Source of the DNA: Burkholderiales bacterium
GTDB lineage: Bacteria; Pseudomonadota; Gammaproteobacteria; Burkholderiales; Usitatibacteraceae
Length of the DNA stretch: 11,444 bases
Assembly (NCBI GenBank): GCA_017880705.1
Contig: JADGRS010000058.1
Location: 1-11,444, forward strand
Direction of reading: 5' to 3'
In this document: piece by piece, positions 3 to 11,444 of the stretch
Layout of the letters: the number at the start of each line of letters is the position of its first letter
How positions within the stretch are numbered: the first letter of the stretch is position 1
Made by a program: the position numbers and the translations under genes
Notes under the pieces: generated by a model
Database searches by the model: none
Seen by the model: only the letters and a program-made list of their open reading frames with translations
Told to the model about the DNA's origin: nothing

Positions 3-3000
3 CTCGCGGCGCTCGTGGCGCTCTTCCTGGGGCTTTTCGCGATCCTCGTGACGCCGCGCGAGGAGGAGCCGCAGATCGACGTCACGATGGCCAACGTCTT
101 CGTGCCTTTCCCCGGCGCGTCGGTGAAGGACGTCGAGTCCCTCGTGACGATTCCCGCGGAGCAGGTGCTCGCGCAGATGCCGGGCGTCGAGCACATCCAT
201 TCGGTGTCGCGCCCGGGAATGGCGCTCGTCACGGTGCAGTTCAAGGTCGGCGTGCCGCGCACGGAAGCGATCGTGCGCGTGCGCGACACGCTCGCCGCCA
301 ACCGCGACTGGGTGTCGCCGGAGCTGGGAGTCCTCGAGCCCGTGGTGAGGCCGCGCGGCATCGACGACGTGCCGGTGGTCGCGCTCACGGTCTGGAGCGA
401 CGATCCCGCCAAGGGGGCGTTCGAGCTCGAGCGCGTCGCGCACGCGATCGAGTCGGAATTGAAGCGGGTGCCCGGCACGCGCGAGGTGCAGACCCTCGGA
501 GGACCGGGGCGCACGGTGCGCGTTCTTCTCGACGCCGATCGAATGAACGCGAGCGGCGTTTCGGCGATCGACGTTCGCAACGCGCTGCAGCTTTCGAACG
601 TGGCGCTGCCTTCGGGCTCGATCGTGCGCGGGAACCGCGAGGTCGTCGTGGAGACCGGCAACTATCTCGAGAGCGCCGCCGACGTGCGCGCGCTCGTGGT
701 GGGCGCGGTCGAGCGCCGCCCGGTGCTGCTGGGCGACGTGGCGGAAGTCGTGGATGGCGCCGAACCGGCCTCGAAGTACGTGTGGATCGGGGCCGGCGCC
801 GCGGCCGGCAAGGCGGGGGTCGCGCGCGGCGAGCGTCCCGCCGTCACGATCCAGGTCACCAAGAAGCCCGGCGAGAACGCGGTGGAGGTGGCTTCTCGCG
901 TGATGCGGCGCATGGAGGAGCTCCAGGGCACGCTCATCCCCGCCGATGTGAAATTCGCGGTGACGCGCGACTACGGGCTCACCGCCGACGACAAGGCGAA
1001 GAGCCTCATGAAGAAGCTCGTCTTCGCGACGCTGTCCGTGGTGGCGCTGGTGTTCATCGCGCTCGGCCGGCGCGAGGCGGCGATCGTCGGCACGGCGGTC
1101 GTGCTCACTCTGTCGGCCACGCTCTTCGCGTCGTGGGCGTGGGGCTTCACCTTGAACCGCGTGTCGCTCTTCGCCCTCATCTTTTCGATCGGCATCCTCG
1201 TGGACGACGCGATCGTGGTGGTCGAGAACATCCACCGCCGCCGCGCGAGGACCGACGAGCCGCTCGCCGCCGTCGTTCCGGTGGCCGTCGACGAGGTGGG
1301 CGGCCCGACCATCCTCGCGACGCTCACGGTGATCGCCGCGCTCCTGCCGATGGCGTTCGTGAGCGGGCTCATGGGCCCGTACATGGGCCCCATTCCGATC
1401 AACGCGAGCCTGGGCATGCTGATTTCGCTCGCCATCGCGTTCACCGTGACGCCGTGGCTCGCCCTGAAGCTCCTCGCCGATCGCGTCCACGGGAGCGCGT
1501 CGGCCTTCGACGCGAGGCTCGAGCGCGGCTTTGCCCGCCTGCTGGCTCCATTTCTCGCCGACGCGCGCGCGCCACGCAACCGGCGGCGCCTCGCGATCGG
1601 CATCGCGGCGGCGATCGCGGCCTCCATCGGGCTCGCGGCGGTGAAGCTCGTCGTCCTCAAGATGCTGCCCTTCGACAACAAGAGCGAGTTCCAGGTGGTG
1701 GTCGACATGCCCGCCGGGACTCCCGTGGAGATCACGGCGGCGGCGCTGCACGAGCTGGGTGCGCAGGTCGCCACGCTGCCCGAAGTGACCGACTACGAGG
1801 CCTATGCGGGGCTTGCATCGCCGATCAACTTCAACGGCCTCGTGCGCCAATACGCGCTGAGGAGCGCGCCGGAGCAGGGCGACCTGCAGGTGAACCTCGT
1901 CGACAAGTCCGCGCGCCATCGCAAGAGTCACGAGATCGCGCGCGCCGCGCGCCCGAAGCTCGAGGAGATCGGGAGGCGCTGGGGCGCGCGCGTGAAGGTG
2001 GTCGAGGTGCCCCCGGGCCCGCCGGTTCTCTCGCCGATCGTCGCGGAGGTCTACGGGCCCGACGAAGCCGGGCGCATCCGCGTGGCGAAGGAAGTGCGCG
2101 CGGCGCTCGCGGCGACGCCCGACGTGGTGGGAATCGACGACACGGTCGAGGACCTCGCACCGAGGCTCGTGCTCAAGGTGGACCAGGCCAAGGCGGCGCT
2201 CGCCGGCATCTCGCGCCGCGACGTGGTGGAGACGTTGCGCATGGGCCTCACGGGCGCGGACGTGACGCCGCTGCACGACGGCCATTCGAAATACGAGGTG
2301 CCGGTGCGCGTCGCGCTGGCGGCGGAACGCCATGGCGACCTGTCGGACCTCCTGAAGCTCAACCTGCGCGCGCTCGACGGCTCGCTCGTGCCGCTCTCCG
2401 AGACCGTGCGCGTGGTGACGAACGACCGCGACCGTCCCGCGTACCGCAAGGACCTGCTGCCGGTGGTGTACGTGGTGGCCGACGAGGCCGGGCGGCTCGA
2501 CAGCCCGCTCTACGGACTATTCGCCGCGCGCTCGCGGATCTTTGCCGATGGCGGTATCGCTCCCGCCGAATACTTCATCCGCCAACCCTCGGATCCGTAT
2601 CGCGCCTATGCCGTGAAGTGGGACGGCGAGTGGCAGGTGACCTACGAGACGTTTCGCGACATGGGGCTCGCGTACGCGGTGGGCCTGGTTCTCATATACC
2701 TGCTGGTGGTGGCGCAGTTTCGCTCGTACCTGGTGCCGCTCGTGATCATGGCCCCGATCCCGCTGACGGTGATCGGCGTCATGCCCGGGCACGCGCTCCT
2801 GGGCGCGCCGTTCACCGCGACCTCGATGATCGGCATGATCGCGCTCGCCGGCATCATCGTGAGGAACTCGATCCTGCTGGTGGACTTCGTGAACCAGCGC
2901 CTCGCCGAGGGCCTGCCTCTCGAGGAAGCCGTGATGCAGTCGGCGGCCGCGCGCGCCAAGCCCATCGCGCTCACGGCGCTCGCGGCGATGATCGGGGCGG

Positions 3001-3140
3001 CGTTCATCCTCGACGACCCGATCTTCAACGGGCTCGCGATCTCGCTTCTCTTCGGCATCCTGGTCTCGACGCTCCTCACGCTCCTCGTCATTCCGCTGCT
3101 CTACTACCTCGTGGCGCGGCGGAGCGTCGCCGGCCCTTGA
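3..3140 (+). CDS. RND efflux permease subunit (AcrB/HAE1-like), 5' partial
   Basis: This is an inner-membrane proton-driven pump subunit of a tripartite efflux system. The left edge cuts it inside the first membrane helix. The frame is open from the first bases and the visible sequence begins with the end of TM1, followed by PREEEPQIDV, a motif typical of one RND branch. With 1045 codons visible and a usual length of 1030-1070, only about 15-30 residues are missing. Counting from the codon at base 3, a periplasmic porter domain is followed by a hydrophobic block from about residue 340. The TM4 pair Asp401-Asp402, in GILVDDAIVVVEN, matches the proton-relay aspartates of AcrB. A second porter domain follows, then a last helix block from about residue 885. 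Arg954, in IIVRNSILLVDF, sits where AcrB has its relay Lys. The adaptor gene would be expected upstream, outside the window. The substrate cannot be read from the sequence. Confidence 0.93.
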   Translation, partial: LAALVALFLGLFAILVTPREEEPQIDVTMANVFVPFPGASVKDVESLVTIPAEQVLAQMPGVEHIHSVSRPGMALVTVQFKVGVPRTEAIVRVRDTLAANRDWVSPELGVLEPVVRPRGIDDVPVVALTVWSDDPAKGAFELERVAHAIESELKRVPGTREVQTLGGPGRTVRVLLDADRMNASGVSAIDVRNALQLSNVALPSGSIVRGNREVVVETGNYLESAADVRALVVGAVERRPVLLGDVAEVVDGAEPASKYVWIGAGAAAGKAGVARGERPAVTIQVTKKPGENAVEVASRVMRRMEELQGTLIPADVKFAVTRDYGLTADDKAKSLMKKLVFATLSVVALVFIALGRREAAIVGTAVVLTLSATLFASWAWGFTLNRVSLFALIFSIGILVDDAIVVVENIHRRRARTDEPLAAVVPVAVDEVGGPTILATLTVIAALLPMAFVSGLMGPYMGPIPINASLGMLISLAIAFTVTPWLALKLLADRVHGSASAFDARLERGFARLLAPFLADARAPRNRRRLAIGIAAAIAASIGLAAVKLVVLKMLPFDNKSEFQVVVDMPAGTPVEITAAALHELGAQVATLPEVTDYEAYAGLASPINFNGLVRQYALRSAPEQGDLQVNLVDKSARHRKSHEIARAARPKLEEIGRRWGARVKVVEVPPGPPVLSPIVAEVYGPDEAGRIRVAKEVRAALAATPDVVGIDDTVEDLAPRLVLKVDQAKAALAGISRRDVVETLRMGLTGADVTPLHDGHSKYEVPVRVALAAERHGDLSDLLKLNLRALDGSLVPLSETVRVVTNDRDRPAYRKDLLPVVYVVADEAGRLDSPLYGLFAARSRIFADGGIAPAEYFIRQPSDPYRAYAVKWDGEWQVTYETFRDMGLAYAVGLVLIYLLVVAQFRSYLVPLVIMAPIPLTVIGVMPGHALLGAPFTATSMIGMIALAGIIVRNSILLVDFVNQRLAEGLPLEEAVMQSAAARAKPIALTALAAMIGAAFILDDPIFNGLAISLLFGILVSTLLTLLVIPLLYYLVARRSVAGP

Positions 3141-3166
3141 CGGGCCATGACGCGGACGCCTATTGT
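3137..3166 (+). promoter_or_regulatory. Candidate sigma70 promoter for sorAB
   Basis: TTGACG at 3137-3142 overlaps the stop codon of the RND gene. After an 18-base spacer comes TATTGT at 3161-3166, which matches TATAAT at four of six positions. This would start transcription near 3173, about 37 bases before the sorA start codon. No terminator hairpin is evident between the RND gene and sorA, so read-through from the pump gene is equally possible. This is a pattern match only. Confidence 0.35.
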
Positions 3167-3197
3167 TCCCTTGAGCGCGGGCTCCACGCGCTGCCGC

Positions 3198-3203
3198 AGG
3201 AGG
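3198..3203 (+). promoter_or_regulatory. Ribosome binding site fixing the sorA start
   Basis: A perfect AGGAGG lies six bases before the ATG at 3210. It favours that start over an in-frame ATG at 3147, which has no such site. The shorter protein begins directly with the Tat signal. Confidence 0.85.
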
Positions 3204-3209
3204 AAAACC

Positions 3210-4430
3210 ATGCTTGGCCGCCGCCGCTTCCTCGCCGGACTCGCCGTCCCGGCGATCTCGTCGCTTTCACCCGCATCGTCTTTCGCCGCGAAGGTGTGGC
3301 AACCGCCCGAGCTGCCCGAGGGCGCGATCGAGGAGGGCGGTCTCGAGCGCATCGCGGGAAAGGTTCCGCTCATCAAGCGCAGCTTTCGCCCGCCGAACTT
3401 CGAGACGCCGCTCGATTATTTCCGCGATCCGATCACGCGCAACGACGCTTTCTTCGTGCGCTATCACCTCTCGGGCATTCCCGAGGTCGACGCGAAGACG
3501 TGGCGCCTGAAGATCGGCGGCGACGCCGCGCGCACGCCTCTGGAATACGACCTCCCGCGGCTGCGCAAGGAATTCGAGAGCGTGGATCTCGTGGCGGTCT
3601 GCCAATGCTCCGGCAACCGCCGCGGAATGTTCCAGCCCCATGTCCCCGGCGTCGAGTGGGGCGTGGGCGCCATGGGAAACGCGCGCTGGACGGGCGTGCG
3701 GCTGCGCGATGTGCTGCAGAAGGCGGGCGTCGGCGACAACGCCGTCGAGATCGCCTTCAACGGGGCGGACATGCCCGCGATCCAGGGCACGCCCGATTTC
3801 AAGAAGAGCCTGCCGGTGCCGCGAGCGCTCGACGACACGACCCTCATCGCCTTCGAGATGAACGGCAAGCCGCTGCCGCATTGGAACGGCTTCCCCGCGC
3901 GGCTGATCGTCGGAGGCTGGACCGGGACATACTGGATGAAGCACCTCACCGAGATCGAGATCCGCTCCAAGCCCCTTTCCGAGTTCTGGATGACTCCCGC
4001 GTATCGCATTCCCGCCGGGCTCTTTCCAACGGTCGATCACTTTCCGACGCAGGAAACGGCGGCCAACCAGCCGATCACCGACATCGTCGTCAACTCGCTC
4101 GTCACCTCGATCCACGATGGCCAGCGCGTGACGCGCGGCCAGATGGTGGACGTCGCGGGCGTCGCGTGGGATGGCGGGCGCGGCATTCGCGACGTCGAGG
4201 TGTCCACCGATGGCGGCAGCTCATGGGTGCTCGCGCAGCTCGGCAAGGACCTCGGGCGCCTCTCCTTCCGCACGTTCATGCACAAGTTCCGCGTCGCCGC
4301 GGGGGATGCGCCCGTGGTCATGGTGAGAGCGATCAACCAACGCGGCGACGTGCAGTCCCCGAAGCTCATCCTCAATCCCGCGGGCTATCACCACAATGTG
4401 ATCCCGCGCATCCGGCTGGAGGTGGCGTGA
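3210..4430 (+). CDS. sorA: Sulfite:cytochrome c oxidoreductase, molybdenum subunit (SorA-like)
   Basis: This is a periplasmic molybdopterin enzyme of the sulfite oxidase family that oxidises sulfite to sulfate. From the ATG at 3210 it is 406 residues. The N-terminus RRRFLAG plus a hydrophobic stretch ending near SSFAA is a twin-arginine export signal, as expected for a protein folded around its cofactor. Cys133, in CQCSGNRRG, is the Mo-binding cysteine of the family. Arg84 and His86 (VRYH) and Tyr265 (TPAYR) fall at a constant offset of 29 from the active-site residues I recall for Starkeya novella SorA (Arg55, His57, Cys104, Tyr236). The C-terminal part, from about residue 285, is the Ig-like Mo-co dimerisation domain (VSTDGGSSW). 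The stop overlaps the sorB start by one base, so the two are translationally coupled. A SoxC-type sulfur dehydrogenase is the alternative, but the dedicated small cytochrome next door argues for SorA. Confidence 0.9.
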   Translation: MLGRRRFLAGLAVPAISSLSPASSFAAKVWQPPELPEGAIEEGGLERIAGKVPLIKRSFRPPNFETPLDYFRDPITRNDAFFVRYHLSGIPEVDAKTWRLKIGGDAARTPLEYDLPRLRKEFESVDLVAVCQCSGNRRGMFQPHVPGVEWGVGAMGNARWTGVRLRDVLQKAGVGDNAVEIAFNGADMPAIQGTPDFKKSLPVPRALDDTTLIAFEMNGKPLPHWNGFPARLIVGGWTGTYWMKHLTEIEIRSKPLSEFWMTPAYRIPAGLFPTVDHFPTQETAANQPITDIVVNSLVTSIHDGQRVTRGQMVDVAGVAWDGGRGIRDVEVSTDGGSSWVLAQLGKDLGRLSFRTFMHKFRVAAGDAPVVMVRAINQRGDVQSPKLILNPAGYHHNVIPRIRLEVA

Positions 4431-4720
4431 TGAGGATCGTTCACGGCATTGCACTATCGATCTGCGCGCTCGCGGCCGGCGTCGTCCTGGCGGGCGAGGA
4501 GAAGATCCAGCTCAAGGAAGGCCCGGGCGTGGACAAGGTGCGCGCCAACTGCGTCTCCTGCCACAGCCTCGACTATGTTCTGGGCAATTCCCCGTTCCTC
4601 GACGACAAGGGATGGGACGCGGAAGTGAAGAAGATGATCAACGCGTTCAAGGCGCCCATCAAGCCCGAGGACGCCGCCCCGATCGCGGAATATCTCGCCC
4701 GGTACTACGGCAAGCGCTGA
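4430..4720 (+). CDS. sorB: Sulfite:cytochrome c oxidoreductase, cytochrome c subunit (SorB-like)
   Basis: This is a 96-residue exported monohaem cytochrome c that takes electrons from the molybdenum subunit and passes them to soluble cytochrome c or the terminal oxidase. The first 21 residues form a Sec signal (hydrophobic core, likely cleavage after VLA). The haem motif is Cys41-Val-Ser-Cys44-His45. It is followed by SLDYVLGNSPFL and a WDAEVKKMI segment, whose Met69 is a candidate sixth haem ligand. The arrangement CHSLDY, then W-x-AEV-x-KMI, then API, then a YL-x-x-YY tail fits the SorB pattern. The ATG shares its first base with the upstream stop (TGATG), and GGAGG at 4418-4422 sits seven bases before it, inside sorA. 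The assignment rests on the motif pattern plus the sorA neighbour. Confidence 0.88.
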   Translation: MRIVHGIALSICALAAGVVLAGEEKIQLKEGPGVDKVRANCVSCHSLDYVLGNSPFLDDKGWDAEVKKMINAFKAPIKPEDAAPIAEYLARYYGKR

Positions 4721-4727
4721 CGCACGA

Positions 4728-5195
4728 CTACTCCAACCTATAGGCCGAGTGGCACGCGACGCATTGCGCGGTCACGGCCGATAGCGCTTCGATCGCGCCC
4801 CTGACATCGCCGCTGGCGCCGGCGTTGGTCGCCGCGATGCTGAAGCGGCTCGCGGCCTTGTGCATGCCGGTGCCGATGTCCTGCATCGCGGGCGGCATGT
4901 ATTGCGCGACGTCGTGCGCGCCGTGCAGCTCGAGGGAGCTCAGGCCCAGGCGGTGCTCGGAGATCTCGGCGGCGCGATCGAACTCGCCGCGGCCGAGCGC
5001 CTGCTCGATCTGCTGCAGCGTGGCGAGGTGATCGCGCATGTTGGCGAGGGTGTGCCGCCGCAGCTCGTCGGGAAAGCGCACCGCCACGCGCGTATCCGTC
5101 GCGGCGGCGTGCTCATGGACGGACGGGGTCGCGCACGATGTCGCCGCGAGCGCTGCCAGGGTGCTCGCAACGGCGAAACGCTTCGCGGGTCGCAT
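4728..5195 (-). CDS. c-type cytochrome of the c'/c556 four-helix type
   Basis: This 155-residue exported haem protein has its single haem motif at the extreme C-terminus, Cys145-Val-Ala-Cys148-His149 followed by SAYR, the hallmark of class II cytochromes (c' and c556). The N-terminus is a signal sequence. LAATSC with Cys21 resembles a lipobox, but Ala rather than Leu at -3 makes lipid anchoring uncertain. The middle is predicted helical, and Met53 (LANMRDHL) lies in the first helix, where c556 proteins carry their axial Met. A c556-like His/Met haem is therefore more likely than a five-coordinate c' haem. GAGG sits eight bases before the chosen ATG. The gene converges on sorB with a 7-base gap and diverges from the UbiB-family gene. 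An electron carrier role is likely, but a link to sulfite oxidation is only suggested by position. Confidence 0.82.
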   Translation of the reverse strand: MRPAKRFAVASTLAALAATSCATPSVHEHAAATDTRVAVRFPDELRRHTLANMRDHLATLQQIEQALGRGEFDRAAEISEHRLGLSSLELHGAHDVAQYMPPAMQDIGTGMHKAASRFSIAATNAGASGDVRGAIEALSAVTAQCVACHSAYRLE

Positions 5196-7499: not shown

Positions 7500-8445
7500 G
7501 AATGGCTCCTTCATCATGGTGCGACGGAATCGGTGCGTTGCCGGCAGGCTCCAGCTCGTGCCTGGCCGGCCTCGAATAGTAGGCGAGGCAATCCTTCTCC
7601 CGGCCGCGCACGACGCGCATGCCGGCGAGAGGTCCGCGCGTTTCGGTCACGACGGTGCTCTGGTGCTCCACGTGGTCGCCGTCGTAGAAGTAGATGACCA
7701 CCCAGTCGCGCACGCGATCGAGCTTGTGGGCGAGGGCGGTGTTGGAGAAGAGCGCCGTGAAGTGCCAGGGACCGCGCTCGGCGTGGAGAAGAGGAAGCCA
7801 CGGGTGGCCCTCGGGATTGAATCGTCGCGGAGCGATGGTGCGCAGTTTCCCCGCGCGCGCCTTCTCGCGGTACTCGTGGTCGACGTCGAGGATCGTGCCG
7901 ACCGCGGGCTCGGTCGCGGTGTCCGCGGCCGCGAAGGGCCGCCCGCCGCGAAGTCGCCCCAGCATGGAATCGAGCGCGGCGCGCCACGCGGCGGCGCGCC
8001 GCTCGCCCACGCCGGGCACGGTGCGCAGCCGGCCATCGTGAGCCGCGGCCTCGAGAGCCTCGAGCGAATCGATGTGCAGGCGGTCGTGGATGCGCGCGGC
8101 GAGGGCGGGCCCCATGCCGGGGACCGTTCGAAACAGGGTGGCGGGTTCCGTGGTGCCGCGCAGCCTTTCGAGCAGCGACCAGCGGCCGGTGGTGAGCATC
8201 TCGGCGATCGCCGACGCGATTCCCAATCCGACGCGCGGGATCGCGTCGAGCCCGCGCACGCCCTCGGACTCGAAGGTCTCGCGAACGCTGCGGCCCTGGG
8301 CCGCCACCGCTTCGCCGGCGCCGCGATACGCGAGCACGCGATAGGCGCTCGCGCCCTGGGCTTCGAGAAGGTGCGCCGCCTCGCGCAGCCTGTCGGCGAC
8401 GTATTCGTTCTCGGCGGGCGCCGCGATGGCGGGGCGCGCGCTCAT
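7489..8445 (-). CDS. Helix-hairpin-helix DNA-binding protein with PolX-like N-terminus
   Basis: This 318-residue protein has a first domain (about residues 12-165) that resembles the N-terminal 8-kDa and helix-hairpin-helix region of family X DNA polymerases: NEYVADRLREAAHLLE, then ASAYRVLAYRGAGEA. Three hairpin motifs follow: IPRVGLGIASAI (69-80), VPGMGPALAARI (108-119) and VPGVGERRAAAW (143-154). No nucleotidyltransferase palm or PHP domain follows. Instead, residues about 180-295 form a different domain (GPWHFTALFSNTALAHKL, DWVVIYFYDGD, TVVTETRG, VVRGREKDC) that I do not recognise. DNA binding is therefore likely and polymerase activity is not. The start overlaps the upstream stop as ATGA, with no Shine-Dalgarno site, so translation is probably coupled. 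It lies between the phosphoribosyltransferase and the BCAM0308-type gene in a low-oxygen-type operon. Confidence 0.8.
   Translation of the reverse strand: MSARPAIAAPAENEYVADRLREAAHLLEAQGASAYRVLAYRGAGEAVAAQGRSVRETFESEGVRGLDAIPRVGLGIASAIAEMLTTGRWSLLERLRGTTEPATLFRTVPGMGPALAARIHDRLHIDSLEALEAAAHDGRLRTVPGVGERRAAAWRAALDSMLGRLRGGRPFAAADTATEPAVGTILDVDHEYREKARAGKLRTIAPRRFNPEGHPWLPLLHAERGPWHFTALFSNTALAHKLDRVRDWVVIYFYDGDHVEHQSTVVTETRGPLAGMRVVRGREKDCLAYYSRPARHELEPAGNAPIPSHHDEGAIHEK
7506..7511 (-). promoter_or_regulatory. Ribosome binding site fixing the start at 7499
   Basis: On the minus strand AAGGAG ends six bases before the ATG at 7499. It lies downstream of the two other candidate ATGs (7517 and 7514), so it decides the start of the BCAM0308-type gene. 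It is embedded in the end of the preceding gene. Confidence 0.75.
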
Positions 8446-9092
8446 GGGGAAGAGATCGCGGCCGGCTCGCGCTCGCGGAGAATGCGCGTCACGGTGTCGT
8501 CGGAAACCTGGTCGAAGACATGGTAGAACTGCCCCACCGACTGGAAGCCGACGGGAGTCTCGAGACAGACGATCTCGTCGGCGAGGGAAGCGATCCTCAC
8601 GAGGCTTTCGCGGGAAGCGACCGGAATGGCGCAAACGAGCGTCGCGGGATTGCGCGAGCGCACCGCGTGGAGAGCGGCGATCATGGTGGCGCCGGTCGCG
8701 AGCCCGTCGTCGATCACGATGGCGATGCGCCCCGCCGGATCGAGCGGGCGCCGCCAGGGCGTGTAGAGCGCGCGGCGGCGCTTGAGCACGTCGAGCTGGA
8801 CGCGCTTCTCTTCCTCCAGGTACTCGTCGTCGACACCCAGGTCGCGCGCGAAGTCGGCGACGTAGGTCCAGCCGCTTTCGTCGACGGAACCCACGGCGAG
8901 CTCCCCGCTCGAGGGCGCCTGCAGCTTCCTCACCAGCACGACGTCGAAATCGCCTTCGAGGGCGTCGGCGATGATGCATCCCATCGGCACGGCGCCGCGC
9001 GGTATGGCCAGGACCAAGGGGTCGCGCCCGCGGTACTTGCGCAGGGCATCGGCCAGCTGCCTGGCAGCGTCGGTGCGGTCGTCGAAGTACAT
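8442..9092 (-). CDS. Phosphoribosyltransferase family protein
   Basis: This 216-residue protein has the type I phosphoribosyltransferase fold. The PRPP-binding loop is IDDGLATGATM at 127-137, with Asp128-Asp129. The N-terminal FDDRTDAARQLADAL and PRGAVPMG (31-38) are typical of the stand-alone family often found with stress and low-oxygen genes. The FDVVLVRKL and GELAVGSVDESG stretches also fit. The natural substrate base is unknown for this subfamily, so no specific purine or pyrimidine enzyme is claimed. The frame extends upstream to 9224, but homologues begin at the MYFDDR position, so the ATG at 9092 is preferred. It has no Shine-Dalgarno site (CTCCCT precedes it). The putative promoter would start transcription at or next to this ATG, so the message may be leaderless. 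It is the first gene of a three-gene operon, and its stop overlaps the next start as ATGA. Confidence 0.88.
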   Translation of the reverse strand: MYFDDRTDAARQLADALRKYRGRDPLVLAIPRGAVPMGCIIADALEGDFDVVLVRKLQAPSSGELAVGSVDESGWTYVADFARDLGVDDEYLEEEKRVQLDVLKRRRALYTPWRRPLDPAGRIAIVIDDGLATGATMIAALHAVRSRNPATLVCAIPVASRESLVRIASLADEIVCLETPVGFQSVGQFYHVFDQVSDDTVTRILREREPAAISSP

Positions 9093-9098
9093 AGGGAG

Positions 9099-9104
9099 AT
9101 TGTC
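9099..9104 (-). promoter_or_regulatory. Candidate -10 element, minus-strand operon
   Basis: On the minus strand this reads GACAAT, matching TATAAT at four of six positions. Its upstream end is 28.5 bases from the centre of the FNR-type box, the spacing expected of a class II FNR-activated promoter. Transcription would begin around 9092, at the start codon itself. Confidence 0.45.
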
Positions 9105-9125
9105 GGCCGGGCCGTGGCGCGGCCT

Positions 9126-9139
9126 TTGACGGGAATCAA
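9126..9139. promoter_or_regulatory. FNR/ANR-type box in a divergent promoter region
   Basis: TTGAC-GGGA-ATCAA matches the FNR consensus TTGAT-N4-ATCAA at nine of ten defined positions. It lies in the 103-base spacer between two diverging transcription units. FNR-family regulators bind such sites when oxygen is low. Because -10-like hexamers lie at equal distance on both sides, one dimer could activate both units. CRP-type or DNR-type family members can use similar sites, so the exact regulator is not determined. Confidence 0.7.
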
Positions 9140-9160
9140 GCCCGCGGCGGGCCATGCACC

Positions 9161-9166
9161 GAGAAT
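9161..9166 (+). promoter_or_regulatory. Candidate -10 element, plus-strand pair
   Basis: GAGAAT matches TATAAT at four of six positions. It begins 28.5 bases from the centre of the FNR-type box, placing that box close to -41.5. Transcription would begin near 9173, giving a leader of about 23 bases that contains the strong ribosome binding site. Confidence 0.5.
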
Positions 9167-9184
9167 GGGGGTGTAAATCGACCG

Positions 9185-9190
9185 AGGAGG
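9185..9190 (+). promoter_or_regulatory. Ribosome binding site for the coiled-coil gene
   Basis: AGGAGG lies five bases before the ATG at 9196 and rules out the in-frame ATG at 9154, which would also lie upstream of the predicted transcription start. Confidence 0.85.
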
Positions 9191-9195
9191 AAGCC

Positions 9196-9501
9196 ATGAA
9201 AAGCCGCGACGAGTACGTGAGCAAGCTGAAGACCGACCTGGACCGCTGGAACGTCGAGGCCGCGAAATGGGAAGCGCAAGCCGCGAGCGCGCGCGCGGAC
9301 CTGAAGAAGGGCTACGCGAAGCAGCTGGAAACCCTGCGCGCCCGGCGCGAGGAGACGCTCTACAAGCTGAACCTGCTGGAGGCCGCCTCCGCGACCGCGT
9401 GGACCGAGCTGGAGCGCGGCGCCGACGAGGCGTGGGTGCGCATGAAGGAAGCGATGGCGGCGGCGAAGTCGCACTTCGAAAAGGCGCACACGGGCAAGTA
9501 G
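9196..9501 (+). CDS. Short coiled-coil protein (sll1863-type stress protein)
   Basis: This 101-residue, highly charged, almost entirely helical protein has no signal peptide and no membrane segment. The heptad-like pattern runs from YVSKLKTDLDRWNVEAAKW through LKKGYAKQLETLRARREETLYKL to WTELERGADEAWVRMKEAM. The opening (DEYVxKLKxxLDxWN) and the closing AWxELERGxDEAWxxMKEA pattern resemble small proteins annotated as the sll1863 stress-response family. That likeness is from memory and the function is unknown. The start at 9196 is set by an AGGAGG five bases upstream. The gene is first behind the plus-strand side of the FNR-type promoter, so it is probably induced at low oxygen. The kinase gene begins two bases after its stop. 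Confidence 0.8.
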   Translation: MKSRDEYVSKLKTDLDRWNVEAAKWEAQAASARADLKKGYAKQLETLRARREETLYKLNLLEAASATAWTELERGADEAWVRMKEAMAAAKSHFEKAHTGK

Positions 9502-9503
9502 CC

Positions 9504-11444
9504 GTGGAACGGACACTCGCTTCGCCGGCGGCCCTGGTCGAGTCGCTGCTGCGGCCCGCCTGCTATCCGCATCCCGTCGATCGGGTCGAGGTGCTCGAGA
9601 CGCACATTTCGTACGTGCTGCTCGCCGGCGAGTTCGCCTACAAGATCAAGAAGCCGGTGCGCCTCGCCTTCCTCGATTTCTCGTCCCTGCAGGCGCGGCG
9701 CTTCTATTGCGAGGAGGAGGTGCGCCTGAATCGGCGCACGGCGCCGGAGATCTACCTCGGCGTGGTCGCCATCGGCGGCGAGCCCCTTGCTTTCGGCCCC
9801 TGCGAGGCGCCGGTCGAGTACGCGGTGAAGATGAAGCGCTTCTCCCAGGAGACGCTCCTCGACCGCCTGGCGCGCGAATGCCGCCTGGGTCCGGGTGTGA
9901 TCGACGCGCTGGCGCGCTGCATCGCGCGCTTCCATGCGGTGGCGCCGCGCGCCGAGGCCATCGACGAGCAGGACAGCATCGCGCGCGCCGCGCGGCCGGC
10001 GCTCGACAATTTTCGCGAGATCGCGGCGCTCGAGACTTCCGCCGCGATCGGCGCGGCGCTCGAGCGGTTGCGCGCCTGGACGCTCCTCCAGCGCAAGGTC
10101 CTCGCGCGGCGCTTCGCGCTGCGCCGCCTCGACGGCTTCGTGCGCGAATGCCACGGCGACCTGCATCTCGGCAACGTCGCGTTGGTCGACGGCGTGCCGG
10201 TGCCCTTCGATTGCATCGAGTTCGATGCGCGGCTGCGCTGGATCGACGTGATGAGCGAAATCGCCTTCCCGGTGATGGACCTCGAGCACCACGGCCTGCC
10301 GCGCCTCGCCGCGCGGTTACTCAGCGCGTACCTCGAGGAAAGCGGCGACTACGCGGGGCTGCGGGTGCTGCGCTTCTATCTGGTCTATCGCGCGATGGTT
10401 CGGGCGAAGGTCGCGTGCATTCGCGCGCACCAGCGCGAGCCGGGAACGCGAGAGCGTGGCGCCGCGCACGCCGAGTTCCTCGAGCGGTTGCAGCTCGCCG
10501 AGCGCCTCGCGTCCACGGAGGCGCCGGTGCTGATCCTCATGCACGGATTTTCGGGATCTGGAAAGACCACCCGCATACCACCAGCTCTCACAGCGATTGG
10601 TAAGACGATTCTCCTTCAGCCACGTCGCGTCGCGGCGCGCTCGCTCACGAAACGCATCGCCGCCGAGCGCGGATGGACCATCGGGCGGGAGGTGGGGTGG
10701 CAGATCCGGATGGAGCGGAAGTTCTCCGCCGAGACAGCGCTCCTCGTGGCCACTGAGGGAATCCTGACCGCCAGGTTGCAATCGGATCCGCTCTTGAGCG
10801 ATTTCAAGGTCATCGTGCTCGACGAGTTCCACGAGAGGAGCGTTCATGCCGACCTGGCCCTGGCGCTGTCCCGTCAGGCCGTCGAGGCGCGCAATGATCT
10901 CTCGCTCGTCGTCATGTCGGCCACTCTCGATGCCACAGCCGTCGCAGCATTCCTCGGCAATGCCGGCGTCGTCGAGATCACCGGGCGGCAATATCCGGTG
11001 GAGATCGAGTACCGGCCCGGCGGACAACCAGCGGACGTCATCTTCGAGGTCACAAAGCGCGCAAACGGAGGCCACATCCTGGCCTTCTTTCCCGGACAGC
11101 GTGAGATCGAAGCGGCGCGCGACGCACTGCGCGCTCAGTTGCCGGCCGTTACCTTCGCCGTTCTGCCGCTGCATGGATCGCTGAGCTCCGAGGAGCAGGA
11201 CCGCGCGCTCGCGCCGTCGTCGATGCGCAAGGTCATTCTTTCCACGAACATCGCGGAGACCTCTCTCACTGTGGAGGGAGTGACCGACGTGATCGACATG
11301 GGACTCCACAAAGTGCTCCGGTATGACACCTCGACGGCACTCGATCGCCTGGAGACCGAACGCGTGCCGCGGGACTCGGCCGAGCAGCGTGCCGGCAGAG
11401 CCGGTCGGACGGCTCCCGGACGCGCCATCCGTTTGTGGGATGCT
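9504..11444 (+). CDS. Aminoglycoside-phosphotransferase-like kinase fused in frame to HrpB-type DEAH helicase, 3' partial
   Basis: One frame, opened by GTG at 9504 two bases after the preceding stop, runs without a stop to the right edge (647 codons). Residues 1 to about 346 are the N-terminal half of the 'bifunctional aminoglycoside phosphotransferase/ATP-binding' family: YPHPVDRVE, YKIKKPV (46-52), the Brenner-type catalytic loop HGDLHLGN (217-224) and FDCIEFD (235-241). In that family a small P-loop kinase domain follows. Here, from the P-loop GSGKTT (351-356) onward, the sequence is instead a DEAH helicase: QPRRVAARS, TEGILTARLQSDP, DEFHERS (440-446), MSATL (471-475), STNIAETSLTV and QRAGRAGR (628-635). 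Both RecA-like domains are visible, but the HrpB C-terminus is outside. Codon use changes sharply at codon 348. A true fusion, a recombinant gene or an assembly chimera are all possible. The kinase half, by itself, fits the low-oxygen unit. Confidence 0.75.
   Translation, partial: MERTLASPAALVESLLRPACYPHPVDRVEVLETHISYVLLAGEFAYKIKKPVRLAFLDFSSLQARRFYCEEEVRLNRRTAPEIYLGVVAIGGEPLAFGPCEAPVEYAVKMKRFSQETLLDRLARECRLGPGVIDALARCIARFHAVAPRAEAIDEQDSIARAARPALDNFREIAALETSAAIGAALERLRAWTLLQRKVLARRFALRRLDGFVRECHGDLHLGNVALVDGVPVPFDCIEFDARLRWIDVMSEIAFPVMDLEHHGLPRLAARLLSAYLEESGDYAGLRVLRFYLVYRAMVRAKVACIRAHQREPGTRERGAAHAEFLERLQLAERLASTEAPVLILMHGFSGSGKTTRIPPALTAIGKTILLQPRRVAARSLTKRIAAERGWTIGREVGWQIRMERKFSAETALLVATEGILTARLQSDPLLSDFKVIVLDEFHERSVHADLALALSRQAVEARNDLSLVVMSATLDATAVAAFLGNAGVVEITGRQYPVEIEYRPGGQPADVIFEVTKRANGGHILAFFPGQREIEAARDALRAQLPAVTFAVLPLHGSLSSEEQDRALAPSSMRKVILSTNIAETSLTVEGVTDVIDMGLHKVLRYDTSTALDRLETERVPRDSAEQRAGRAGRTAPGRAIRLWDA
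10545..10571 (+). other. Composition and homology junction at the P-loop
   Basis: This stretch encodes GFSGSGKTT, the Walker A region shared by the kinase family on the left and the helicase family on the right. Of the 41 codons ending at 10544, three end in A or T. Of the 30 codons from 10545, sixteen do, including ATA, CCA, ACA, GGA and TCT. The break falls exactly where the protein homology changes, so the exchange point is probably at or just before 10545. No inverted repeat, target duplication or mobile element boundary is visible here. Confidence 0.7.

Follow-up and report, generated by a model that had tools for sequence, protein, structure and literature searches.

A kinase-helicase reading frame at the end of a contig is very probably an assembly chimera joined at shared Walker A codons

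In one account of metagenome assembly, a nucleotide stretch common to two species is described as collapsing into one node that has two entrances and two exits, and such nodes, when unresolved or wrongly paired, are described as leading to chimeric contigs (PMC8171044). The part of that account used here concerns evolutionarily similar species. Unlike that situation, the case that we describe involves distant organisms, with a short conserved motif as the shared word. Two described protein types bear on it. The first combines an APH domain with an AAA_33 domain. In the nearest relative of the kinase described below (L005), a protein of 545 amino acids, APH is followed by AAA_33 at residues 360 to 509, and a plasmid-borne relative (H23) is annotated as "bifunctional aminoglycoside phosphotransferase/ATP-binding protein." The second is HrpB, a DEAH-box ATP-dependent helicase. 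The HrpB locus most relevant here (L034) encodes an intact protein of 804 amino acids that has its own N-terminus and HrpB_C and that passes the cutoff of the NCBIfam HrpB model, TIGR01970, with 593.7 bits.

The window, by which we mean the whole stretch of 11,444 nucleotides that was analyzed, is an entire contig (C500, 11.4 kb) of a draft genome bin with 509 contigs and 87% completeness. The original prediction described a single uninterrupted frame at positions 9504 to 11444, and this was borne out: the forward strand carries one open frame of 647 codons that contains no stop and runs through to the contig's final base. The same prediction raised two possibilities for this frame, a new kinase-helicase architecture and a clean chimera that arose through the similarity of two P-loops. 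We find strong support for the second. The frame is almost certainly an assembly chimera of two unrelated genes from two bacteria rather than a new protein, a judgment that draws on the sequence relationships set out below. Elsewhere in the window, a SorA-like sulfite dehydrogenase gene lies within positions 3147 to 4720 (417 bits, below the 600-bit NCBIfam cutoff). Directly after it, at about 4430 to 4720, is a small gene in which a CVSCH heme-binding motif was read by eye; its product is likely a cytochrome c partner of the SorA-like protein.

The domain content of the frame changes abruptly along its length. Pfam placed APH at residues 120 to 287 (PF01636, 34.3 bits against a cutoff of 23.2), DEAD at 346 to 478, and Helicase_C at 514 to 636, with the switch at the Walker A motif, in agreement with the predicted order of a phosphotransferase-like part followed by a helicase. 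AAA_33 was not found in the frame by Pfam at an E value of ≤0.01. TIGR01970 matched residues 344 to 646 (8.4e−97), corresponding to model positions 20 to 336 of 825, and it outscored the HrpA model on the same frame (325 versus 262 bits). The match did not reach the whole-protein cutoff for HrpB (325.4 versus 546.15 bits), and it stops at model position 336 of 825, at the contig end. Unlike the protein of L034, the window has no HrpB N-terminus before the P-loop and nothing past that model position; neither HrpB_C (PF08482) nor HA2_N was found by Pfam in its 647 residues.

We then compared the two halves separately. The 5′ part, at positions 9504 to 10551 of the forward strand, is identified by protein identity, its APH match, and its GC content at third codon positions (GC3) as the probable beginning of a host-type APH plus AAA_33 gene whose AAA_33 half is missing. 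Its best matches were in one genome of the same genus (G003, 61% protein identity) and six genomes of the same family (54 to 57%). In these seven genomes the alignments ran from window residues 6 to 11 through residues 365 to 368, within frames of 547 to 638 codons, and they included the P-loop HG(F/L)SGSGKTT of L005, L008, L015, and L016. Thus far the window resembles an ordinary APH plus AAA_33 protein; unlike one, it has helicase sequence in place of AAA_33 after the P-loop. In L005, which comes from G003, AAA_33 begins exactly at the P-loop where the window switches, and this confirms the expectation that the kinase family has a P-loop domain of its own at this point. The gene is patchy in the host's group, being found in 1 of 5 other genomes of the genus and 6 of 22 other genomes of the family; the single-contig genomes of the genus (G002, G004, and G005) gave one match each, of the helicase type. 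Among plasmid sequences, the nearest relatives by coverage and identity were from Cupriavidus (47 to 49%). With its nearest matches in the host's own genus and family, the kinase half reads as host-like. The bin also holds a second, distant homologue of this half (G000:C120:1286-2248, 34% identity) in a frame of 364 codons, which is too short for an AAA_33 domain of the usual size.

The helicase half has a very different set of relatives. When it was scanned against one genome per species in the GTDB release 220 set, 40 loci were returned. The top locus, L034 (JADGNX010000009.1), belongs to Thermoanaerobaculia bacterium isolate Chersky.13_21, a metagenome-assembled genome (MAG), and showed 98% protein identity. 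The next eight loci showed 58 to 67%, and all nine best loci were titled Acidobacteria or Thermoanaerobaculia. A check of the taxonomy placed Thermoanaerobaculia within Acidobacteriota. At the DNA level the relationship is closer still: window positions 10552 to 11444 and L034 positions 3999 to 4891 form an ungapped alignment with 886 of 893 bases identical, so that 893 bases from the P-loop onward are 99% identical to a Thermoanaerobaculia hrpB. When the window was compared with L034 in the same register in blocks of 100 bases, the nine blocks upstream of 10552 were 19 to 32% identical, and the nine downstream were 96 to 100% identical. We therefore have two sources with a sharp switch at 10552, a host-type kinase on one side and an Acidobacteriota hrpB on the other. 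The genes flanking hrpB in L034 look, from their translations, like those for 2-oxoglutarate dehydrogenase E1 and the carbamoyl-phosphate synthase small subunit. A search of the donor genome with window positions 8001 to 11444 returned, among 40 candidates scored, only the hrpB piece and one match of 33 bases.

The wider distribution of DNA matches also points to Acidobacteriota. Among 30 genomes of the donor and its relatives (donor included), 16 matched the helicase-half DNA at an E value of <1e−49 and 18 at ≤0.001. Among 299 genomes of the host's phylum (its own included), 48 matched at ≤0.001, and the best match other than the window's own had an E value of 2.2e−14, with 73% identity over about 170 bases. 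The seven base differences from L034 over the 893 bases indicate that the window's piece comes from a different, closely related strain of that group. Five of the seven cluster within 26 bases, at 11027 to 11052; recombination between strains, or a consensus built from several strains, may account for this cluster.

We considered whether the helicase half could have come from the bin itself. The bin's own HrpA-like gene, on contig C237, was rejected as its source, as the two share only 45% protein identity. A native HrpB was likewise rejected, since HrpB_C was not found in the bin or in 149 of the 150 genomes searched from the host's order (the bin's own included). The profile search covered the whole bin, and the same profile was detected in 5 of 14 control genomes. 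The single occurrence in the order (L075, G131:C9:27019-27420) lies in a frame of 941 codons. In the wider class, helicase matches in HrpB-sized frames were common among the matches listed for 185 genomes. It seems that hrpB has been lost, or only rarely gained, in the host's order. On these relationships, the helicase half is foreign to the host.

The remainders of both genes were also sought in the bin. With the AAA_33 part of L005 as a query, nothing was found in the bin (G000) at an E value of ≤10; as a control, the same query found matches in all 10 genomes picked for holding a kinase match (9 besides its source) and in none of 3 Thermoanaerobaculia genomes. The rest of HrpB was not found in the bin either, and the sole match covered 94 residues of the HrpA-like gene in a 987-codon frame on C237. 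Because the bin is incomplete, the failure to find these remainders carries little weight by itself, and we use it as one line of evidence beside others.

To place the two halves, we examined the host lineage and GC3. A 16S model gave no match in the window's bin or in the donor MAG. The 16S sequence of a complete genome of the same genus had its closest plasmid-borne copies in Caballeronia and Burkholderia (90% over the full length), and on this basis we treat the host as betaproteobacterial. With a betaproteobacterial host and an Acidobacteriota helicase donor, the two halves are taken as coming from different phyla. The original prediction had named a comparison of the best-hit taxa of the halves as a check on an artifact, and the outcome, Acidobacteriota for one half and the host's own genus and family for the other, with no second fusion among the matches listed for other genomes, is the one expected of an artifact. 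GC3 was 0.90 in the kinase half, and seven other genes of the window that were measured gave 0.85 to 0.92. In the helicase half it was 0.765, against 0.766 for hrpB of L034, and three genes neighboring the latter gave 0.81 to 0.83. The step in GC3 agrees, modestly, with a reading in which the frame has two sources.

The position of the join suggests how two such genes came to share a frame. Identity to hrpB of L034 starts at base 10552, within the codon just before GSGKTT, and base 10551 differs. The join zone on the forward strand, CGGGATCTGGAAAGACCACC (10552 to 10571), encodes the Walker A motif as (S/P)GSGKTT, is identical to L034 positions 3999 to 4018, and has a codon register that the two gene families share. 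The 20-base word is thus present in the hrpB parent, and the nearest kinase relative, L005, shares 17 of its 20 bases. A script found the motif in 6 of 19 kinase loci, where only 13 to 17 of the 20 bases were alike, and a second HrpB locus (L036) had 14 of 20. It is plausible that the host's own kinase carries all 20 bases, or nearly so. Since the motif and its register are common to both genes, a mis-join at this place leaves the frame open even if a fused protein was never selected for. Both the uninterrupted frame and the clean P-loop swap follow from where the join lies, and so neither is evidence for a functional fusion.

The same signature, two organisms joined abruptly at a short common word, is also expected of a library or amplification chimera. 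In that case the polymerase would have switched templates at the P-loop sequence while PCR or whole-genome amplification was under way, and real chimeric molecules would have existed before assembly. However, rare chimeric molecules seldom determine a contig, and we regard this origin as very improbable. Another way to reach the same sequence is a recent horizontal transfer, in which a piece of Thermoanaerobaculia hrpB recombined in frame at the P-loop to give a real APH-DEAH helicase protein in one strain. In favor of transfer, no stop interrupts the frame at the join, the P-loop is intact, and illegitimate recombination could be guided by a common word of as many as about 20 bases. However, the open frame is expected anyway from the common codon register, and 99% DNA identity demands a very recent event across phyla. 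The host kinase would also lose its AAA_33 domain in the process, and the hrpB piece reaches the contig end, so that the window contains no return junction.

If the fusion were a real protein, relatives with the same domain order might be expected, and a search for such homologues had been proposed with the original prediction. None was found: apart from the window, no second case was present among the matches listed for 61 genomes (the bin and its relatives) or among those listed for 185 genomes of the class. In the rows listed for both sets, kinase-side matches end by residue 391 and helicase-side matches begin at residue 300 or later. The exception is one row (G043:C6) that spans residues 258 to 645 in a 1,348-codon, HrpA-sized frame; we take this row, together with the helicase-type rows that start at residues 300 to 307, to be loose alignment edges. 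From the other side, the kinase was not found in any frame of the 40 HrpB loci at an E value of ≤1e−3. In 8 of these loci, stretches preceding hrpB gave weak kinase matches (E values of 0.05 or worse, over 7 to 45 residues) that look like chance. One HrpB locus, L054, has a 415-codon open frame in register before the P-loop (positions 2756 to 4000), without a kinase match; by eye it looks like a chance open frame in high-GC DNA. A genuine fusion family was accordingly rejected, and the proposed new architecture found no support either in the listed matches of the 61 and 185 genomes or in the 40 HrpB loci. The absence of the fusion elsewhere among the matches listed also counts against transfer, which, with the points given above, we judge to be the least probable of the explanations considered.

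This leaves assembly as the preferred origin of the chimera. A short-read metagenome assembler would have passed from the host bin's kinase gene to a Thermoanaerobaculia hrpB, crossing at a short exact sequence common to both genes at the Walker A codons. Pairing of the wrong ways in and out at this shared word would have produced the chimeric contig, which would then have stopped 893 bases past the join. We infer that the join was most likely made in assembly, rather than during PCR or inside a cell, and that the host and the Thermoanaerobaculia strain most likely co-occurred in one sample. Some observations weigh against this explanation: the patchy occurrence of the kinase in the host's group, the partial agreement of the six measured kinase relatives with the 20-base word, the seven differences from L034, and the modest size of the GC3 step. 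On the forward strand, positions 10552 to 11444 are accordingly read as a foreign piece of Acidobacteriota (Thermoanaerobaculia) hrpB from the P-loop onward, and the contig boundary at 11444 lies within this piece.

These results bear on how such frames are read. Where distant genes encode a conserved motif, the Walker A P-loop being one example, they can come to carry similar DNA words in a common codon register, and a mis-join at such a motif yields an open and plausible multidomain protein. When frames of this kind are met near the contig ends of draft MAGs, the nearest relatives of both halves should be compared before a new architecture is claimed. For the present bin, the last 893 bases of the contig should be treated as foreign.
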